A DNA stretch of 64,000 nt from NCBI GenBank assembly GCA_016870035.1, contig VGCJ01000002.1:1-64000 (forward strand). The letters run 5' to 3'. The notes beneath the pieces are model-generated. The model did not search any database. It was not told the DNA's origin and saw only the letters and a list, made by a program, of their open reading frames with translations. Shown piece by piece: positions 1,567 to 44,786 of this stretch. The first letter of the stretch is position 1, and each line of letters starts with the position of its first letter. Source of the DNA: Alphaproteobacteria bacterium (GTDB lineage Bacteria; Pseudomonadota; Alphaproteobacteria; Rhizobiales; Beijerinckiaceae). Made by a program: the position numbers and the translations under genes.

Positions 1567-3942
1567 ATGGCGGCACTCATTGTGAGCTTTCTTCGGCAGC
1601 ATCGCTTCTTTGTTTTCACTCTTTTGGCACTTGCGCTTGTGTCATGGTATGCAGCGGTCAACGCACAGGATCAAACCAATATTCGCGCACAACTTGATGC
1701 CTTACGTCTTGAACTTGACGGAATTGAAGCGGTCATAACGTCCCGGCCGATGGGCGACTCTGCTTTTCAAGAAAAGCGGCAACGTGTTGAAGCGATCGCG
1801 CAAGCCATGAAAACCATCACCGATGAACAATCGCCGCGCGCCGAAGCCATTCGTTCACGTTTGAAAGAATTGGGTCCAAAGCCCGACGATAAGGCTCCGC
1901 CTGAAAGTCCTGATATTTCGAAAGAACGCGAAGAGCGTGAAAAGGCGCTCAAAGAATTTGATGATACAGTAAAGCTTGCTCGGACTTTGTCGGTTCAAGC
2001 TGATCAATTACAAACAGCGATCTCCGATAAACGGCGCGCGCTCTTTACGCAGCAACTTTTCTCGCAATCGGCAAGCGTCCTTTCGCCTGGGCTTTGGTCA
2101 GATATCGGATTTAACTTCTCGCATGATGTGCGAGCGCTTGGGATTGTCGCGCGGGATACAATCGAACGTGCGGTTGATCGAGCAGGTCTTCTTGGCGGAT
2201 TGTTGATCGCCTTGGGGTTGGGTTTTACCGCTTTTGCAACGATGCTCGCGCGGCGACATGTGATCGCAATGATTGAACGTTCGACGCGTTTCGGAAATCC
2301 GACACGGCTTCAGCGTGCCTTACGCGCGGTGGCGGTGGGTGCCATCGGTTTCGTTATTCCTTTCTTTGGTATTTTCGCGATTGAGCAAGCGGTCGATGGT
2401 GCGGCGCTTCTACCGAACCGCGTTGAGCCTGTCATGGTGGCGGTGTTACGCGCTGCAGTGTTTATCAGCTTTATTGGCAGCCTTGCGGGAGGAATTCTTG
2501 CAACCGCGAAGCCAGAATGGCGCGTACTTCCTTTGGGAGATCGTCAGGCTGAAAAACTTGCAGCAATCGCGCGGCGAATTGCGCTGATAATCGCGACGGG
2601 TCGTGTGATTGAATCAATTAATCAAGCGATTGTTGCGGGTCTTGGCCTTTCGGTTCTTTCAAAATCACTGATTGCGCTTTTGGTCGCTGCTACGCTCACG
2701 ATTGGTCTTTATCGCTTAAAGCCCGAAGATCGTGGTGATGCATTTGGTGATCAACGACCTTTCTGGATTGTCATTGCGCGTCTCTTTGGTTGGGTGATGG
2801 TTGTCGGCATTTCGATTTCGGCATTTTTTGGTTATCCGGTTCTCGCAAGTTTTCTTGCCGATCAACTCGTGACCATCGTGATCTTGACGGTCCTCACTTA
2901 CATCGGTCGACAGATTGCCGAAGATTCATTTGATTATTTGATGTCGCCGAGCACCAAGACGTTTCGTTCTATACAATCCGCCTCGGGTCTTTCGCGTCCT
3001 GCGCTTGAACAAATTACTGTCATTCTCTCGGGCGTCTTGCAGCTCTTAGTTTTAGGTCTTGGCGTAACTTTGGCACTTGCGCCGTGGCGAGTTGATTCAG
3101 GCGATATTTTGTTGCCGCTTAAAGCGGTGATTTTCGGCTTTACCATCGGCGAAGTCACGATTTCATTTGGCGCCGCCTTCTTTGCCATTATCCTTTTCGG
3201 CGCCGGTATTCTGCTGACACGCGGTTTACAAAGATGGCTCACACAAAATTATTTGCCCCGTACGCATCTTGATTCTGGTTTACGAAATTCAATTGTGACC
3301 GGCATTGGCTATACGGGTTTTATTGTTGCCGCCGCAGTTTCATTGAGTGGCCTCGGCTTAAGTCTCGAGAAAGTCGCCATCGTTGCTGGTGCTCTCTCTG
3401 TCGGTATCGGTTTTGGCCTTCAATCCATCGTCAATAATTTCGTTTCTGGTTTGATCCTTTTGTGGGAGCGTGCCATTCGTGTGGGTGATTGGGTGGCTGT
3501 TGGCGCTGAAGAAGGGCATGTCAAACGTATCAATGTGCGCGCCACAGAAATTGAAACATTTGACCGCTCGGTTTTGATTGTTCCGAATTCATCGCTTGTT
3601 TCAGGCGTCGTTAAAAATCGCGTTCATAATGATCGCACGGGTCGTGTTGTGATTTCTGTTCCGGTGTCGCGTGATGCCGACCCAGATCTCGTTCATCGCT
3701 TGATGAGTGAAGCCGCGCAGGCAAATAGCAAATTGCTTCGCGACCCCGCACCACATGTTCAATATAAAAAGCTAGGCGAGACCGTTAAAGAATTCGAGCT
3801 AACGGGGTTTGTTGCCGAAGTGGATGATGCCGGACGTGTGAGCTCAGATTTACTCTTTGTCATTGATCGCGCGTTACGCGCATATGGATTAGGCGAGATT
3901 TTAAGCCGTACCTTAATGGTGAATGAAGAGAAATCCAAATAA
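1567..3942 (+). CDS. MscS-family mechanosensitive channel with N-terminal DUF3772
   Basis: A 791-residue membrane protein. Residues about 12-34 form a signal or first hydrophobic segment, followed by a charged helical periplasmic region to about residue 190 with the composition of DUF3772. About ten hydrophobic segments follow. The conserved MscS pore and beta domain begins near residue 612 (GIGFGLQSIVNNFVSG, then LWERAIRVGDWV). This is the architecture of the large MscK/YjeP-like channels that release osmolytes on hypo-osmotic shock; the DUF3772 version is common in alphaproteobacteria. GGAGGG precedes the ATG. The gene converges on the helicase gene and shares a likely terminator with it. 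Confidence 0.9.
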   Translation: MAALIVSFLRQHRFFVFTLLALALVSWYAAVNAQDQTNIRAQLDALRLELDGIEAVITSRPMGDSAFQEKRQRVEAIAQAMKTITDEQSPRAEAIRSRLKELGPKPDDKAPPESPDISKEREEREKALKEFDDTVKLARTLSVQADQLQTAISDKRRALFTQQLFSQSASVLSPGLWSDIGFNFSHDVRALGIVARDTIERAVDRAGLLGGLLIALGLGFTAFATMLARRHVIAMIERSTRFGNPTRLQRALRAVAVGAIGFVIPFFGIFAIEQAVDGAALLPNRVEPVMVAVLRAAVFISFIGSLAGGILATAKPEWRVLPLGDRQAEKLAAIARRIALIIATGRVIESINQAIVAGLGLSVLSKSLIALLVAATLTIGLYRLKPEDRGDAFGDQRPFWIVIARLFGWVMVVGISISAFFGYPVLASFLADQLVTIVILTVLTYIGRQIAEDSFDYLMSPSTKTFRSIQSASGLSRPALEQITVILSGVLQLLVLGLGVTLALAPWRVDSGDILLPLKAVIFGFTIGEVTISFGAAFFAIILFGAGILLTRGLQRWLTQNYLPRTHLDSGLRNSIVTGIGYTGFIVAAAVSLSGLGLSLEKVAIVAGALSVGIGFGLQSIVNNFVSGLILLWERAIRVGDWVAVGAEEGHVKRINVRATEIETFDRSVLIVPNSSLVSGVVKNRVHNDRTGRVVISVPVSRDADPDLVHRLMSEAAQANSKLLRDPAPHVQYKKLGETVKEFELTGFVAEVDDAGRVSSDLLFVIDRALRAYGLGEILSRTLMVNEEKSK

Positions 3943-3970
3943 GAGGCGAGAACTTTTCCGTCTCTTATTT
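3937..3970. terminator. candidate bidirectional terminator between convergent genes
   Basis: AAATAAGAG at 3937-3945 is repeated inverted as CTCTTATTT at 3962-3970 with a 16-base loop. The arms contain the stop codons of both converging genes and give T-rich ends on either strand. The stem is AT-rich and only 9 bp, so termination is an inference. Confidence 0.4.
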
Positions 3971-6900
3971 ATCTTTGCCTTCGAATTGCAACTTCAACGC
4001 TAATAATTTTGCAAAAGGTGAATTGGGATCGGGTGCACGATCTTGTTCGCGCGGACGCGGAGGATCTTGCCATCCGCGATCCGGCTTACGGGCTTGATTT
4101 TTTTTGCCGCCACGCCCTTCAAAGCGCTGGCCACCACGACGCTCATCGCGGCCACCATCATGTTTTCCAAATTGTTTGCGCGGTGGGCGATTTTCACCGT
4201 CTTCCCGTGAGCGTTTGTCATCACGGCGATGGAATGATTTCTTCTCAGCCGCTTGTGAAGTGTCTGAGTCAGCGGATACAGCCGCTTCGCCTTCGCGCGG
4301 TTTATTGTGATGAGATTTACGGCGATCATGTTTTTGCTCTTGCGGGCGGTGGCGATGTTGCCGCCACACTTCAATCATTACAGGTTCAGCAGCTTCGGTT
4401 GTTGCTGCTTCAGGTGTCGCTTCCGCAGTAACTTCCGGCGCGCCACTTTCAGGTTCAGTTGCAACCGGTGTCGCATCACTTGTTTCAGATGAAGGTGACG
4501 CCTCCGGAGCGGCTACCGCTTCCGTTGTTGCCTCAGCTGCAACCGCTTCGTTCGCTTTTGCAAGCGCAATCGTGATTGCAGGTCCCACACGACGATCCAT
4601 GATGTAGCCGAGTGATTTCAAAATTGAATTGAAATCCCCACCTGCACATCCGCAAAGCGATGTCATCGCAACAGTAACAACAAAGCCCTCACCATCGGCA
4701 GCGCCTGCAGGAGGTTCACCCAGCGTGATGCCCGGACGATATTGAATCGCGGGGCGAATAAGATCGGCCAGTCTTTCAAGAATATCAACACGCACGGCGC
4801 GTGAACCACAGACGCGGAAACCGGCAGCACGATAAAGCGTCTTCGGTGTATCAGGATTGATGGGAATCGATGTGCGACCCGAGGCGGCAAGATGAAGAAT
4901 GTCATCAAGCCCCTTCACTTCTGCGCCACATTCTTTCAACGTCCAGAGTTGGCATGCAAGAGCGCGTGGGGCCGGTTTCAACAAAGTAGGCACAGTCAAA
5001 TGATAAGCGCCAAATCTCACACCAAGACCGCGCAAAGCCGCGCGCGCTTCTTGGTCAAGCGTTTTCATGTCTTCATTAACTTTTGTGCGATCAAGTACAC
5101 CCAGCGATTCTGCGATTTGAAAACCGATACCACGCGCCATGCCGGTGAGCGCTTCCGGTTCTTCCAATTTCAAAAGAGGCCCAAGAAGTTTTTCAACATG
5201 CGCTTTGAGCCAGAGATCAATGCGGTTTTGAATTTTCTCACGATCTGCTGATTCAAGATGCTCGTCAGCAAGAAGGCGTAAACGGGGGGCGAGAAGTTTT
5301 TCGCCAGCAGTCAAACGCGCAATCGGTTCACCCAAGAAGCGCAATGCGCCGTCGTGACTTAAGGTAAAGGCTTCATCAACGGCATTTGAAACACGTGTGG
5401 CACGGTTCGCAAATTCACCGGCAAGGGCTTTCAATGCGGCAGCGCGCAAAGCTTTTCCTTCGGGCGAACCTGTGTCCGATTCAGGCACAAATTGAAAACC
5501 GATCAATCGGCCGACGGGGTGTGACTCGACAAGGACTTCGCCCGTCGCCGTGATATCCGCTTCCAGCATCGCGTTCTCTCTCAGCCGACGCATCAGGACG
5601 CTGGTGCGGCGGTCAACAAATCTTTGGGCCAGACGCTCATGAAGCGCGTCTGACAATGCATCTTCTACCTGTCGCGTGGCTTCCTGCCAATGCGTCGGAT
5701 CCGCGAGCCAATTCTCACGATTGGCGACAAAGGTCCACGTCCGGATCTGGGCGATCCGGGCGGAGAGCGTGTCGATATCGCCATCGGTCCGGTTTACCTC
5801 GGCGATCTGGCGGGCGAACCAATCGGCCGGGATCCGCCCTTTTGTTGCGAGGTCGAGATAGAGCGTAGTCACAAGATCGGCATGGGCCTGCGGTGAAACC
5901 TTACGATAATCAGGCACTTGGCACACGGCCCATAGCAATTCGACGGCTTTCTGGCCTTTGGCCGCGGCCATGATTTCCCGATCTCGCGAAGCCGCTTCAA
6001 GCGCTCGGAGATCATCCGCCAAGGGCGCGCGGGTTAGGCCGTCTTCACCGGGGACACGGTCAAGCGCATGGATCAGCGCGGACACGCTTGAAAAATTGAG
6101 TTCAGCGTTGCGCCATTGCAACATCGGCAAAGGCGGGAACACATGGGATTCGAGTGCCTCAACAAGCTCATCTTCAAAAGGCGCACAACGACCGGTTGAG
6201 CCAAATGAGCCATCTTTCAAATAGCGGCCGGCACGTCCGGCGATCTGTCCGAATTCACTCGGAACAAGGCGACGAAATTTTGTGCCGTCATATTTTCGAT
6301 CGCCGGCAAAAGCGACGTGATCGACATCAAGATTAAGCCCCATCCCAATCGCATCTGTTGCAACAAGATAATCAACATCACCTGACTGGTAGAGCGCCAC
6401 TTGCGCATTGCGGGTGCGTGGTGAAAGCGCACCAAGAACAACAGCCGCACCACCGCTTTGACGACGAATGAGTTCGGCGATTGCGTAAACTTCATCAGCG
6501 GAAAATGCGACAATCGCGGAGCGACGCGGCAAGCGGCTGATTTTGCGATCACCTGCAAAAGTCAATTGCGACAGACGCGGACGCGTTGTTGTTTGCAATC
6601 CTGGAATAAGTTTTAGCAAAAGTGGTTTGATTGTTTCTGCACCGATCAACATTGTCTCATCGTGACCGCGCATATTAAGAACGCGATCCGTGAAAACATG
6701 TCCGCGATCAAAATCGGCTGCGAGTTGGCATTCATCAATCGCGATGAATCTGACATCAACATCGCGCGGCATTGCTTCAACGGTTGCTACATAATAACGC
6801 GAGCCTGGTGGTTTGATTTTTTCTTCACCGGTGATGAGCGCCACCGCAGGTGCGCCCACGCGCGCGACAACGCGTTCATACACTTCGCGAGCGAGCAATC

Positions 6901-33982: not shown

Positions 33983-35275
33983 ATGCTAGATCTTCTTATT
34001 AAGTCGGCAAAATTAATAAGCATTCCGAACCTCGTTGACGTTGCTGTGAAGGACGGCAGGATTGTCGAGATTTCGCCGGTCATCATCGGCGAAGCAACCC
34101 GAGTGATTGAGGCACGGGGTAGGCTCGTTTCTCCCCCCTTTACCGATCCTCATTTTCACATGGACGCTACGTTAAGTCTCGGGTTGCCGCGGATTAACCG
34201 TTCTGGAACGCTGCTTGAGGGTATCGCGCTTTGGGGTGAGTTGAAATCATTACTAACAGTAGAAGATGTAATGGAACGAGCACTTCGCTATTGTGATCTT
34301 GCAGTTTCACAGGGCCTTCTAGCCATTCGCTCACACGTCGATGTGTGTGACGATCGATTAATTGCCGCGCAAGCGCTGATTGAAGTGAGAAAGCGTGTAG
34401 CACCTTATATTGACCTCCAGCTTGTGGCTTTTCCTCAAGACGGCCTATATCGCGACCCCAAGGCTGAAGCTAACTTAATTAAAGCGTTGGATCTTGGTCT
34501 TACTGTTGTCGGCGGAATTCCGCATTTCGAGCGCACGATGCAAGATGGAACACGTTCCGTTATACGCCTGTGCGAGATCGCCGAAAAGCGCGGCCTTACT
34601 GTTGATTTACATTGCGACGAATCTGACGACCCAATGTCCCGCCACATCGAAACCTTAGCGAGCGAAACGGTGAGGCTTGGTCTTCAAGGCCGAACAGTTG
34701 GATCGCACTGCACATCGATGCATTCGATGGATAATTATTATGCTTCCAAACTTCTGCCGCTAATAGCTGAAGCAGGTGTCCATATTATTTCAAACCCTTT
34801 GATCAACATCACTCTTCAGGGTCGCTCCGATAGCTATCCGCGTCGGCGTGGTCTTACGCGGGTTGCCGAGCTGCGCGCTGCCGGCGTTAATGTCGCCTTT
34901 GGTCAAGATTGCACGATGGACCCGTGGTATTCCCTAGGCTCGGCTGACATGCTCGAAGTGGCCCATATGGGTATTCATGCCGTTCCCATGACCTCTCGTG
35001 AGGCAATGGCGTGGGCTTTCGAGTCTGTTACTACTAATGGTGCTAAGGCCATGGGTCTTCCTGATCCCACTTTAACTGTTGGCGGGCCAGCTAGCATGGT
35101 CTTGCTCCAAGCGCGTGATCCAATTGAGGCGGTGCGTATGAAGGCGACCAGAATTGCTGTCATTCGGAATGGAAAAATAATTTCAGAAACCACACCGCGT
35201 CTTGCTAGCCTATTCCTTCCGGGTAGGCCGCAAATGCTTGATCCTGCAAATTTTGCTCCTCTTACTGAAGACTGA
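33983..35275 (+). CDS. cytosine deaminase-like amidohydrolase (CodA/AtzC family), island copy 1
   Basis: A 430-residue metal-dependent deaminase. The HxH metal pair is in DPHFHMDA (His57, His59). HCDESDDPMSRH gives the third His and catalytic Glu, SHCTSMHSMDNYY another His, and FGQDCTMDPWYSLG the metal-binding Asp. E. coli CodA has FGHDD at the last site; the Gln and Cys here suggest a changed pocket. CodA deaminates cytosine to uracil, while AtzC of the same family hydrolyses N-isopropylammelide, so any aminopyrimidine or triazine-like ring is possible. The ATG at 33983 is preferred; a GTG 30 bp upstream adds 10 residues. About 45% of positions appear shared with the second island copy at 42002 (estimated by eye). 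Confidence 0.82.
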   Translation: MLDLLIKSAKLISIPNLVDVAVKDGRIVEISPVIIGEATRVIEARGRLVSPPFTDPHFHMDATLSLGLPRINRSGTLLEGIALWGELKSLLTVEDVMERALRYCDLAVSQGLLAIRSHVDVCDDRLIAAQALIEVRKRVAPYIDLQLVAFPQDGLYRDPKAEANLIKALDLGLTVVGGIPHFERTMQDGTRSVIRLCEIAEKRGLTVDLHCDESDDPMSRHIETLASETVRLGLQGRTVGSHCTSMHSMDNYYASKLLPLIAEAGVHIISNPLINITLQGRSDSYPRRRGLTRVAELRAAGVNVAFGQDCTMDPWYSLGSADMLEVAHMGIHAVPMTSREAMAWAFESVTTNGAKAMGLPDPTLTVGGPASMVLLQARDPIEAVRMKATRIAVIRNGKIISETTPRLASLFLPGRPQMLDPANFAPLTED

Positions 35276-42001: not shown

Positions 42002-43300
42002 ATGAGCCTAGACCTGATAATTAGAAACGCGACGCTTCCCGACGGCCGTCAGGGGATTGATATTGGCGTCAACGGCGAGCGAATTGTAGAGACGAGGCCG
42101 AAACTTCAAGCCTTGGCGGCGACTGAGATCGATGCGCTTGGAAATCTGGTGACACCTCCATTCGTCGATCCACATTTTCACATGGATGCTACGCTGACGA
42201 CTGGTATCCCACGCCGGAATGTCCTCGGAAGCCTGTTCGAAGGCATTGCCATATGGGCGGAATTGAAGCAGATCATCACTGAGCAAGAAGTTTACGACCG
42301 CGCGGTAAATTTATGCCAATGGGCCATTGCCCGGGGAAATCTTGCAATCCGCAGTCACGTCGACGTTTGTGATCCGAAGCTCACGGGTGTCAGAGCGCTT
42401 CTGGAGGTAAAGAAGCGGATGAAACCGTTAATCGATATCCAGCTTGTTGCCTTTCCTCAAGAAGGTTTGTTTCGGTTTTCTGAAGGCGAGATGCTCCTCC
42501 GCCAAGCGCTCGACATGGGCGTTGATGTTGTTGGTGGCATACCGCATTTCGAACGTACAATGCAGGACGGACACGACTCGGTGAAGACACTTTGTGAAAT
42601 CGCCGCTAATCGTGGACTGCTTGTTGATATGCACTGTGACGAGAGCGATGATCCGATGTCGCGTCATATTGAGATGTTGGCTTATCATGCGCATCGTCTT
42701 GGTATGAATGGACGGGTTTCGGCGTCCCATGTCACATCAATGCGTACTATGGACAATTATTATTTCAGCAAACTGGTGAATTTGGTTCGCGAAGCCAACA
42801 TCAATGTGATCGCTAACCCTCTGACGAATTCGAAGGGTGACGGCGACTCGGAGCATTATCCAAAATACAGGGGTGTTACTCGTATCAAGGAACTGATGCG
42901 ACGTGGCGTCAATGTTGCTTTTGGACATGATTGCTGCCTTGATCCCTGGTACCCTTTGGGAACTTACGACATGCTGGAAGTCGCCCATATGGGCATACAT
43001 GAGGCGCAGATGAATTCTGTTGCGGAGATGGAGAGCGCAGTTCAGTCCATTACCTATTCTGGGGCAGCTGCGATGTGCCTGAAGGGATACGGACTGGAGC
43101 CTGGATGTTACGCAGATATGGTGGTTTTGGGAGCTGCGGACTGCATCGAGGCGGTGAGATTACGTGCAGATCGCCTAAACGTCATTCGTCGTGGCAAGAT
43201 TATTGCGCAAACGAAACCTGCTGAGGTTTCGGTATTCATTGACGGTATGCAAAGCCCAGTTCATTTCTCTCGAAAACAACACGACCGCTGTAATCACTGA
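42002..43300 (+). CDS. cytosine deaminase-like amidohydrolase (CodA/AtzC family), island copy 2
   Basis: A 432-residue enzyme parallel to the copy at 33983. Metal pair His58/His60 is in DPHFHMDA. HCDESDDPMSRHIEM carries the third His and catalytic Glu, SHVTSMRTMDNYYF the next segment, and FGHDCCLDPWYPLGTYDMLEVAHMG the Asp ligand, keeping the His of E. coli CodA but replacing its second Asp by Cys. GAATCAGGATG gives a good ribosome-binding site. Position directly after the permeases makes this the likely partner of the importer. The substrate could be cytosine, isocytosine or another amino-heterocycle. The C-terminal tail (SRKQHDRCNH) differs from copy 1. Confidence 0.85.
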   Translation: MSLDLIIRNATLPDGRQGIDIGVNGERIVETRPKLQALAATEIDALGNLVTPPFVDPHFHMDATLTTGIPRRNVLGSLFEGIAIWAELKQIITEQEVYDRAVNLCQWAIARGNLAIRSHVDVCDPKLTGVRALLEVKKRMKPLIDIQLVAFPQEGLFRFSEGEMLLRQALDMGVDVVGGIPHFERTMQDGHDSVKTLCEIAANRGLLVDMHCDESDDPMSRHIEMLAYHAHRLGMNGRVSASHVTSMRTMDNYYFSKLVNLVREANINVIANPLTNSKGDGDSEHYPKYRGVTRIKELMRRGVNVAFGHDCCLDPWYPLGTYDMLEVAHMGIHEAQMNSVAEMESAVQSITYSGAAAMCLKGYGLEPGCYADMVVLGAADCIEAVRLRADRLNVIRRGKIIAQTKPAEVSVFIDGMQSPVHFSRKQHDRCNH

Positions 43301-43384
43301 TCACACTGATTTCGCTGACCTTAGCCTCTGTCTTAGCCCCCTAAAGTTGAGCCATTATTGTGGTGTCAATGGGAGGGGTTGGAG

Positions 43385-43673
43385 ATGGCTCGGAAGCGAT
43401 ATTCGGATGAGGATTGTTTGAGGATTTTGCGGCCAAGTTGAACTGGATTTGGCGGCGGGTGCGGATGTTGCCAAGGCATGTCGAACGGCGGGGATTAGTG
43501 ACGCAACCTATTATATCTGGCGCAAGAAGTTCGGCGGGATGGCGAAGCCGCAGCTGACGGAGTTGAAGGCTCTCGAGAAGGAGAACCAGCGGCTCAAGAA
43601 GATCGTTGCGGATCTTGAGCTCGACAAACTGATCCTGAAGGAAAGCCTGGATTTTTTAAAACCCAAGATCTGA
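43385..43673 (+). pseudogene. IS3 transposase OrfA (frameshifted)
   Basis: It starts MARKRYSDEDCLRILR and, after one extra base near 43433-43437, continues in another frame as ELDLAAGADVAKACRTAGIS, then DATYYIWRKKFGG, a leucine-zipper-like LKALEKENQRLKKIVADLELDK and LILKESLDFLKPKI. That is a normal OrfA (helix-turn-helix plus zipper) of 95 residues if the extra base is ignored; the actual span of 289 bases is one more than a multiple of three. The frame ends in a stop shortly after the insertion, so the product is truncated. The programmed frameshift site near the end is still intact. Confidence 0.85.
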
Positions 43674-44545
43674 GTGCTGAAGACCTGAAGGGTGCGGTCG
43701 TTCAGGCACGCCAGAAGCTCGGCACATCCGAGCGGCGGACATGCGAGGTTCTTGGGATTGCCCGCAGCACCCTGCGCTATGAGAGCACCCAGAAGAGCGA
43801 TGATGATCAGCGCTTGGCCGTGATCCGGCTGGCCAAGCAATATGGCCGATATGGATATCGCAAGATCCATGAGCTTTTGCAGATCGAGGGCCTTTTGATC
43901 AATCACAAGAAGGTCGAGCGGATATGGCGGGAAGAGGGTTTGCAGCTGCCCGCTCGCCATAAGCGTCGCAAACGGCTCCACCACCATAATGCGTCCATCA
44001 TCCAGCTACGACCCTATTACCCGAACCATGTCTGGTCGATTGATTTTGTCCATGACAAGCTCAGCAATGGCCGTCCCTACAAGATGCTGACAGTTCTTGA
44101 TGAATACACACGCGAAGCCCTCGCCGTGACGGTTGCCAACAAGATGGGATCATCTGAGGTTCTGGAAGCGCTTTACCCCATACTGCTTAAACGAGGGAAA
44201 CCTGACTATCTGCGCTCCGATAATGGCCCGGAGTTCTCTTGCCAACCCTTCACAGATTGGCTGACCAAAGTCGGTATCAAGCCCATCCGGATCTATCCCG
44301 GGTCACCGTGGGGTGAGACCGTCAATAAATCGCTCCGGTGGAGCGATTTTAGGTCGAACGGGTATTGCGAAAGCTTCAACTCGAAACTCCGAGATGAACT
44401 TCTAAACGGCGAGATCCTCTACACGCTGAAGGAGGTCAAGATCGTGATTGAAACATGGCGGCGCCGCTACAACACAATCAGACCGCACTCATCGCTTCGA
44501 TATCAGCCGCCAGCACCTGAGGTTCTGCAATGGCCGGCTCCGTAA
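43673..44545 (+). CDS. IS3 transposase OrfB (DDE integrase domain, altered by in-frame insert)
   Basis: The frame is open from the slippery site onward: LSAEDLKGAVVQARQKLG, a HTH-like part, then the rve core. The catalytic triad residues are in WSIDFVHD, SDNGPEF and NGYCESFNSK. Between SPW and NGYCES a 15-residue stretch (GETVNKSLRWSDFRS) replaces the single Glu usual there; it is encoded by the palindromic insert at 44312-44356 and sits just before the catalytic Glu. The normal product would be an OrfAB fusion made by -1 frameshifting, but orfA is broken upstream, so activity is unlikely. Confidence 0.85.
   Translation, partial: SAEDLKGAVVQARQKLGTSERRTCEVLGIARSTLRYESTQKSDDDQRLAVIRLAKQYGRYGYRKIHELLQIEGLLINHKKVERIWREEGLQLPARHKRRKRLHHHNASIIQLRPYYPNHVWSIDFVHDKLSNGRPYKMLTVLDEYTREALAVTVANKMGSSEVLEALYPILLKRGKPDYLRSDNGPEFSCQPFTDWLTKVGIKPIRIYPGSPWGETVNKSLRWSDFRSNGYCESFNSKLRDELLNGEILYTLKEVKIVIETWRRRYNTIRPHSSLRYQPPAPEVLQWPAP
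44312..44356. repeat. 45-bp in-frame palindromic insert in the transposase gene
   Basis: AAATCGCTCC (44327-44336), loop GGT, GGAGCGATTT (44340-44349): a perfect 10-bp stem inside a 45-base stretch whose translation has no counterpart in related OrfB proteins. The length is a multiple of three and the frame is kept, as in the Rickettsia-type palindromic elements that settle inside coding genes. Confidence 0.7.
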
Positions 44546-44636
44546 CTCAAACCAGCTACGCCGGCCACTCAACGGCTGGCACCAAACGCAATATTAAACT
44601 AACATAACCTCTGGATCGCCTCACGGGGGCAGGCCA

Positions 44637-44786
44637 GCGAATGATCAGGTTGAAGCCATTCGTTTACGCGCCAACCGGACGACGGTCATCTCTAAGGGGA
44701 AAATTGTTGCAGAGCGTTCGTCAGCGAGAGCAACACTGCATGTCGCGGGTCGGCCTTCAGTCTGCGATCGAAAATTCTCACATTAA
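44637..44786 (+). pseudogene. C-terminal remnant of a third cytosine deaminase-like gene
   Basis: The 49 codons before TAA 44784-44786 read ANDQVEAIRLRANRTTVISK, GKIVAERSSARATLHVAGRP and a short tail. They align without gaps to ARDPIEAVRMKATRIAVIRN in the copy at 33983 and to AADCIEAVRLRADRLNVIRR in the copy at 42002. Homology starts at the first base after the IS right tip, so everything upstream was removed in the event that placed the IS there. It is distinct from both complete copies. Its stop overlaps the stop of the facing DCC gene. Confidence 0.88.

Follow-up and report, generated by a model that had tools for sequence, protein, structure and literature searches.

The hybrid IS3-family element

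The window, as I call the whole 64-kb stretch of DNA analysed here, contains an IS3-family element on its forward strand (positions 43329–44636), with a left end of one type (type B, TGTCTTAGCCCCC) and a right end of another (type A, GGGGGCAGGCCA). It possesses the orfA and orfB genes, with the DDE integrase-type core, that place it in this family. OrfA (43385–43673, forward strand) includes an HTH_Tnp_1 domain, and its frame is broken after ∼16 codons. OrfB (43619–44545, forward strand) is an open frame of 308 amino acids, with HTH_21, rve and rve_3 domains. The matching inverted ends and target duplication of an intact IS3 copy are not found in this element.

To the left lies an uninterrupted frame (42002–43300, forward strand), which I take to be a codA-like gene. 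To the right, the element borders directly on the last 49 codons and stop of another codA-like gene, truncated where the hybrid finishes (44637–44786, forward strand); this fragment shares 83% identity over 47 amino acids with the 3′-terminal part of an uninterrupted codA-like frame in genome G199. The window holds two uninterrupted codA-like genes (33983–35275 and 42002–43300), besides the 3′ fragment of a third.

The mixed ends are matched by the composition of OrfB itself, which is of type B up to position 44311 and of type A from position 44357, with a short insert between the two. Upstream of this insert, the window DNA is identical to the type B copy C40_B at 198 of 246 positions, versus 90 of 173 for the type A copy C85_A; downstream, it matches C85_A at 278 of 352 positions, versus 152 of 348 for C40_B. 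No target duplication was seen at the hybrid element. By eye, such a duplication is present in only one (G140_B) of the five other copies with both ends seen, and since it is rare there too, its absence here is weak evidence for a crossover; it is the mixed ends that carry this argument.

A palindromic insert ahead of the catalytic glutamate

The insert spans 45 nucleotides (44312–44356, forward strand; GETVNKSLRWSDFRS), and the OrfB reading frame remains open across it. Its core (44327–44349, no strand assigned) is a perfect palindrome with a 10-bp stem, of arms AAATCGCTCC and GGAGCGATTT, and the loop GGT, which can be read directly from the sequence, as in the original prediction. That prediction had the segment splitting the SPWENGYCES region without breaking the frame. 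The insert indeed lies in frame, just ahead of the catalytic Glu of the IS3-family OrfB; however, relatives have SPW-E-NGY, and the 45 nucleotides take the place of the GAG or GAA codon. The E codon is therefore replaced, not merely split, and the net gain is 42 nucleotides, or 14 amino acids.

From the literature on IS3 elements and retroviral integrases, I take the Glu of NGYCE to be the catalytic residue. In the window OrfB, 49 residues separate it from the second Asp (D-49-E), while the insert-free copies show a gap of 14 residues in the alignment and so have 35 (D-35-E). As judged from the sequence, the 14 extra residues just before this Glu would be expected to reduce or abolish transposase activity. 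For the window OrfB, AlphaFold2 modeling from the single sequence gave a mean pLDDT of 41.8. A PDB sequence search with OrfB returned 23 chains, and the alignment to 6voy, the sole one examined, ends before the insert.

The insert folds with a predicted energy of −19.0 kcal/mol (z −3.67), with one of 200 shuffled sequences folding equally well. The 23-nucleotide core has a single match in the window at up to three mismatches, against a mean of 0.03 in shuffles. Perfect palindromes with 10-bp arms number one in the window for a loop of 3 nt and three for loops of 3–8 nt, both being raw counts; the palindrome by itself is hence not very improbable, and its recurrence is what counts. A terminator scan of 43300–44700 did not list the hairpin. 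Separately, an imperfect 22-nt palindrome (73% complementary) lies at 44445–44480, in the type A part of OrfB.

The same insert in two IS types

A search with OrfB matched 10 of the 12 genomes of the genus, and 11 copies were aligned at the DNA level, three bearing the insert and eight being insert-free copies of type A or B. Among the loci aligned, the insert-free type B copies are C40, G140:C75 and G068:C7, and those of type A are C10, C85 (partial), G097, G156 and G140:C128. Copies of both types without the insert (C40, C85 and C10) co-reside in G000, the genome of the window. The comparison with OrfB lacking the segment, suggested in the original prediction, thus shows that the insert is not a group-wide feature.

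Searching for the segment showed that it does occur elsewhere. A DNA search identified a second copy, of 93% identity, on contig C86 of G000, and a pattern search for the core at up to three mismatches found only the window and C86 places in this genome. When a 40-residue query was used against the 12 genomes of the genus, five matched: three matches cover the insert, two in G000 and one in G182, another species of the genus, and the five remaining matches begin after it. A 39-nt pattern covering most of the insert, allowing three mismatches, was found in two of 397 genomes of the family, at the same three places. Over the 45 nucleotides, the window copy shares 41 positions with C86 and 40 with G182, and C86 and G182 share 37; the hairpin arms are unchanged between the window and C86.

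The three carriers differ in type. C86 is of type A on both sides, with 202 of 246 upstream positions identical to G097_A versus 129 of 246 to C40_B, and 66 of 73 downstream positions versus 41 of 73, at which point the contig ends inside the IS. G182 carries a decayed type B element, with 55 of 60 and 53 of 60 positions identical to G140_B over the 60 nt that flank the insert on either side; a deletion lies further upstream, and the comparison over the whole upstream region gives 138 of 237. The segment thus occupies one and the same site whether its surroundings are A-A, B-B or B-A. The frame is open across the insert in all three, and all three are damaged: the orfA frame is broken in the window, OrfB has a stop in C86, and G182 has deletions and stops. 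None of the insert-bearing elements found is intact. Neither this damage nor the hybrid of two IS types was foreseen in the original prediction.

It is conceivable that misjoined repeats created both the hybrid and the insert during assembly, as the genome is in 177 contigs and C86 terminates within the IS. However, the insert is carried by three separate sequences from two genomes, which disagree with one another at 4 to 8 of its 45 positions, and a misjoin would not create a 45-nt segment that is missing from the insert-free copies. I consider such an artefact extremely unlikely.

Types A and B are only about 50–55% identical upstream of the insert site. The longest exact match between C40_B and the partial C85_A, 18 bp, spans the site, but once a copy is in place, the exact homology on its two sides that could help to transfer it amounts to only about 7 and 10 bp. 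I compared 12 A-B pairs for shared runs of 12 bp or longer: in two (both involving C85_A) the longest one falls at the site, in six it falls elsewhere, and four pairs, including the co-resident C40_B and C10_A, have no such run. The argument from shared DNA is limited accordingly, holding for two of the 12 pairs.

These figures bear on the possibility that the segment is a mobile palindromic element inserted independently into types A and B, at the same target near TGGGAGAACGG, by some sequence-preferring insertion machinery. The identical position in two types this divergent upstream would be accounted for in this way, and most A and B copies differ by only a few bases right at the site. Against it, the 39-nt pattern is nowhere else in the 397 family genomes, there is no clear target duplication round the insert, and the window hybrid itself displays A-B recombination at the site. 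Independent insertion is thus possible, but I regard it as rather unlikely.

Distribution beyond the genus

A 24-residue peptide query matched three of 397 genomes of the order at E ≤ 0.01, and the insert was found only in G000; the matches in G552 (a Devosia-type repeat) and G555 (nothing recognisable) were weak and dropped on reading. That G552, a genome of the same order, carries such a repeat is consistent with the window coming from an alphaproteobacterium. Within the class, the same query matched one genome of 385, again G000. G182 was not among the matched rows of the order and class samples, and was presumably not drawn. An E ≤ 1e−8 search of 136 genomes of the Devosia family revealed no insert-bearing IS3, with a query that recovers G000 at 4e−25 in the genus. 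The samples of the family (397), order (397), class (385) and Devosia family (136) thus yielded no copy beyond the window, C86 and G182.

No match was obtained among 50,697 phage records. The 40-residue query also hit 447 of the 72,556 plasmid records; the best 30 of these lack the insert and align across an insert-length gap (39 residues on 75 nt). Searches of the literature on in-frame palindromes, palindromes and transposases, hybrid IS elements and Devosia REPs did not find this case, at the level of titles and the start of abstracts and with subscription journals mostly uncovered.

The segment might instead be an old functional extension of one IS3 lineage, since lost from the other copies. 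Such an extension would account for the frame being open in three copies of three and for the hairpin arms being the same in the window and C86. However, it is absent from the eight other aligned A and B copies as well as from the best 30 of the 447 plasmid records, it was not found in the order and class samples beyond G000, and its carriers are all damaged, all of which makes an ancient function very unlikely.

A dispersed palindrome with the same core

The exact core is found in at least 119 stretches of a genome collection. Among the 80 matches listed, 56 are titled Devosia, three are Bacteroidota and the rest are, by title, other Pseudomonadota or metagenome-assembled genomes; the three Bacteroidota matches may be terminators. 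With up to one mismatch, four Devosia genomes contain 9, 17, 8 and 28 copies and a Pelagibacterium genome 13; five other genomes behind these loci have one to three, G182 and G156 have none, and G000 has two, both in IS3. Ten stretches of viral contigs also contain the core, nine of which have Devosia- or Pelagibacterium-like flanks by eye. The dispersed copies lie mostly outside recognisable genes.

In many of the Devosia copies (within L007–L125), the core is part of a longer repeat that also has GGCCATGAGAGCTAC and, at its side, small GC hairpins. This looks like a mosaic repeat family, for which a literature search listed no description. A Thalassospira stretch (L009:175–681) contains a 207-nt repeat twice, 300 bp apart and intergenic, each with the palindrome; the suggestion that these copies adjoin a tRNA was dropped, as ARAGORN found none in positions 1–1000.

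On one strand, the loop is AGT or GGT in 105 of the 128 copies in L007–L125, the same loops as in C86 and the window. The motif [GT]A[AG]G follows on the right of the core in 55 of 104 copies with these loops, and in all three inserts. The inserts thereby fall within what I group as the Devosia-type palindrome (exact 10-nt arms, AGT or GGT loop, [GT]A[AG]G on the right), a grouping made in this analysis, in which the loop and the right-hand motif are majority features and not invariant. Similarity over the right 6 nt gives p values of 0.025 and 0.033, ACT loops being left unreversed in that calculation. The left flanks of the inserts resemble the dispersed repeat no better than shuffled sequences do (65 and 98 of 400 shuffles reach the score). 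Longer shared flanks were not found, the left ones being like shuffles and the right flank of the inserts lacking GGCCATGAGAGCTAC. As the similarity ends close to the core, descent from the dispersed repeat rests on ∼27 bp.

No copy of the core was found outside IS3 in the 10 genomes of the genus searched, and at up to two mismatches it occurs in three of 199 family genomes, namely G000, G157 and G142. The latter two, from another genus, have single imperfect copies, of one and two mismatches, that are not in IS3 and are possibly due to chance. The one-mismatch copy (L005; G157:C15:352789–352811) lies within a coding frame (LKSLHRSDLIFFDPDNGLEV), and this too may be chance.

A hairpin of local and unrelated origin (through slippage, template switching or a terminator-like piece), with a core identical to the repeat by chance, would fit both the lack of other core copies in these 10 genomes and the dissimilar left flanks. 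However, given a palindrome with 10-bp arms, the chance that its arms are identical to one named repeat is, by simple arithmetic, ∼1 in a million, a figure calculated after the fact since the repeat was found by searching with the core. The loop and the right-flank preference agree with the dispersed repeat too, and the terminator scan does not point to a terminator-like piece. Local origin therefore appears improbable.

I also looked for the palindrome within coding frames elsewhere. Pfam analysis of 20 hand-picked ORFs overlapping palindromes, leaving out other long ones such as those in L066, L067 and L071, identified domains in three. In L063 and L117 the palindrome is near the start of the frame and outside the domains, and only in L028, from Pelagibacterium sediminicola, does it lie between domain pieces. 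There, in an HI0933-like flavoprotein gene (2860–4656 of that locus, reverse strand), it codes for KSLHWSDL from residue 281. Alignment to the PDB chain 2i0z breaks off at query residue 254 (chain 153) and resumes at 349 (chain 181) in a second, weak piece of 21 bits, leaving about 67 residues too many and no stop. The extra residues include KSLHWSDL and a PPSPLEGEGLGVRG stretch, which I take to be typical of translated intergenic repeats.

Proposed origin of the insert

The explanation that I favor, with moderate confidence, is that a REP- or RPE-like palindrome entered an IS3 orfB and that recombination close to the SPWENGY codons then carried it from one co-resident IS type to another. The hairpin core, its loop and about four bases on the right would derive from the REP-like repeat of Devosia and some other alphaproteobacteria, and the palindrome would have entered one IS3-family orfB at the DNA coding for SPWENGY. 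The frame stayed open because cores with AGT or GGT loops lack stops in all three frames of both strands, and because the number of nucleotides gained is divisible by three; an insertion of such a core with a length of 3n will rarely break a gene.

Recombination or gene conversion over the SPWENGY stretch would then have brought the insert into another IS3 type resident in the same genome, a route that I infer from the hybrid; the order of these events is likewise a proposal. The window copy itself would result from a crossover of a type B with a type A element, located in or beside the insert; the intervening DNA would have been lost, leaving one end of each type and the codA fragment on the right.

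A broader proposal would start from a mobile palindromic element with kinship to a repeat that is widespread in alphaproteobacteria. This element would prefer to enter the catalytic-loop DNA of IS3 transposases, keep the frame, and then serve as shared homology for the formation of IS hybrids. Taken jointly, these claims seem to me unlikely.

As a whole, the original interpretation is partly supported. Its likening of the segment to the in-frame palindromic elements of Rickettsiales is borne out insofar as the core is dispersed and has one in-frame case in Pelagibacterium, but every copy of the segment detected in G000 and in the other searched genomes of the genus lies within an IS3 orfB. For the same reason, the suggestion that an IS could carry the palindrome to new sites is not supported.

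Comparison with known systems

In-frame palindromic repeats are best known from Rickettsia. The case reported here is one in the catalytic domain of a transposase, in what would be another alphaproteobacterial order, present in two IS types and a recombinant of the two, and its core is shared with a dispersed repeat that also sits in frame in a flavoprotein gene. It provides a small system in which the entry of these repeats into genes, their transfer among mobile elements and the behavior of a D-49-E transposase could all be tested.

The element as a whole is like other IS3-family members in its orfA/orfB layout, its HTH_Tnp_1, HTH_21, rve and rve_3 domains, and the D-35-E spacing of the insert-free copies. 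The window copy differs in its D-49-E spacing and in having ends of two types.

Published work on the alphaproteobacterial RPEs describes palindromic elements that lie in frame within protein genes and add a peptide (PMC3767692, PMC10969869). The insert resembles RPEs, as described, in being palindromic and located in a conserved coding frame that it leaves unbroken. In contrast, RPEs are about 100–150 bp and occur in many Rickettsia genes, while the insert is 45 nt and within the genus is found only in IS3 orfB; its two copies in G000 are both there, and are not dispersed over several unrelated genes of one genome.

The CGTC- and GTAG-tagged REPs are described as small stem-loops, mostly intergenic but some intragenic, found also in free-living bacteria, with the CGTC types predominating in alphaproteobacteria (PMC3733652). 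CGTC REPs have stems of 8–9 bp and loops of 4–5 nt; one of their ends bears an unpaired CGTC, and most of them have a CCA-like tail (PMC3733652). The inserts do have CGTC a few bases before the stem, whereas among the dispersed copies CCGTC is present in no more than 24 of the 104 left flanks. With a stem of 10–11 bp, a 3-nt loop and no CCA tail, the insert was rejected as a CGTC REP.
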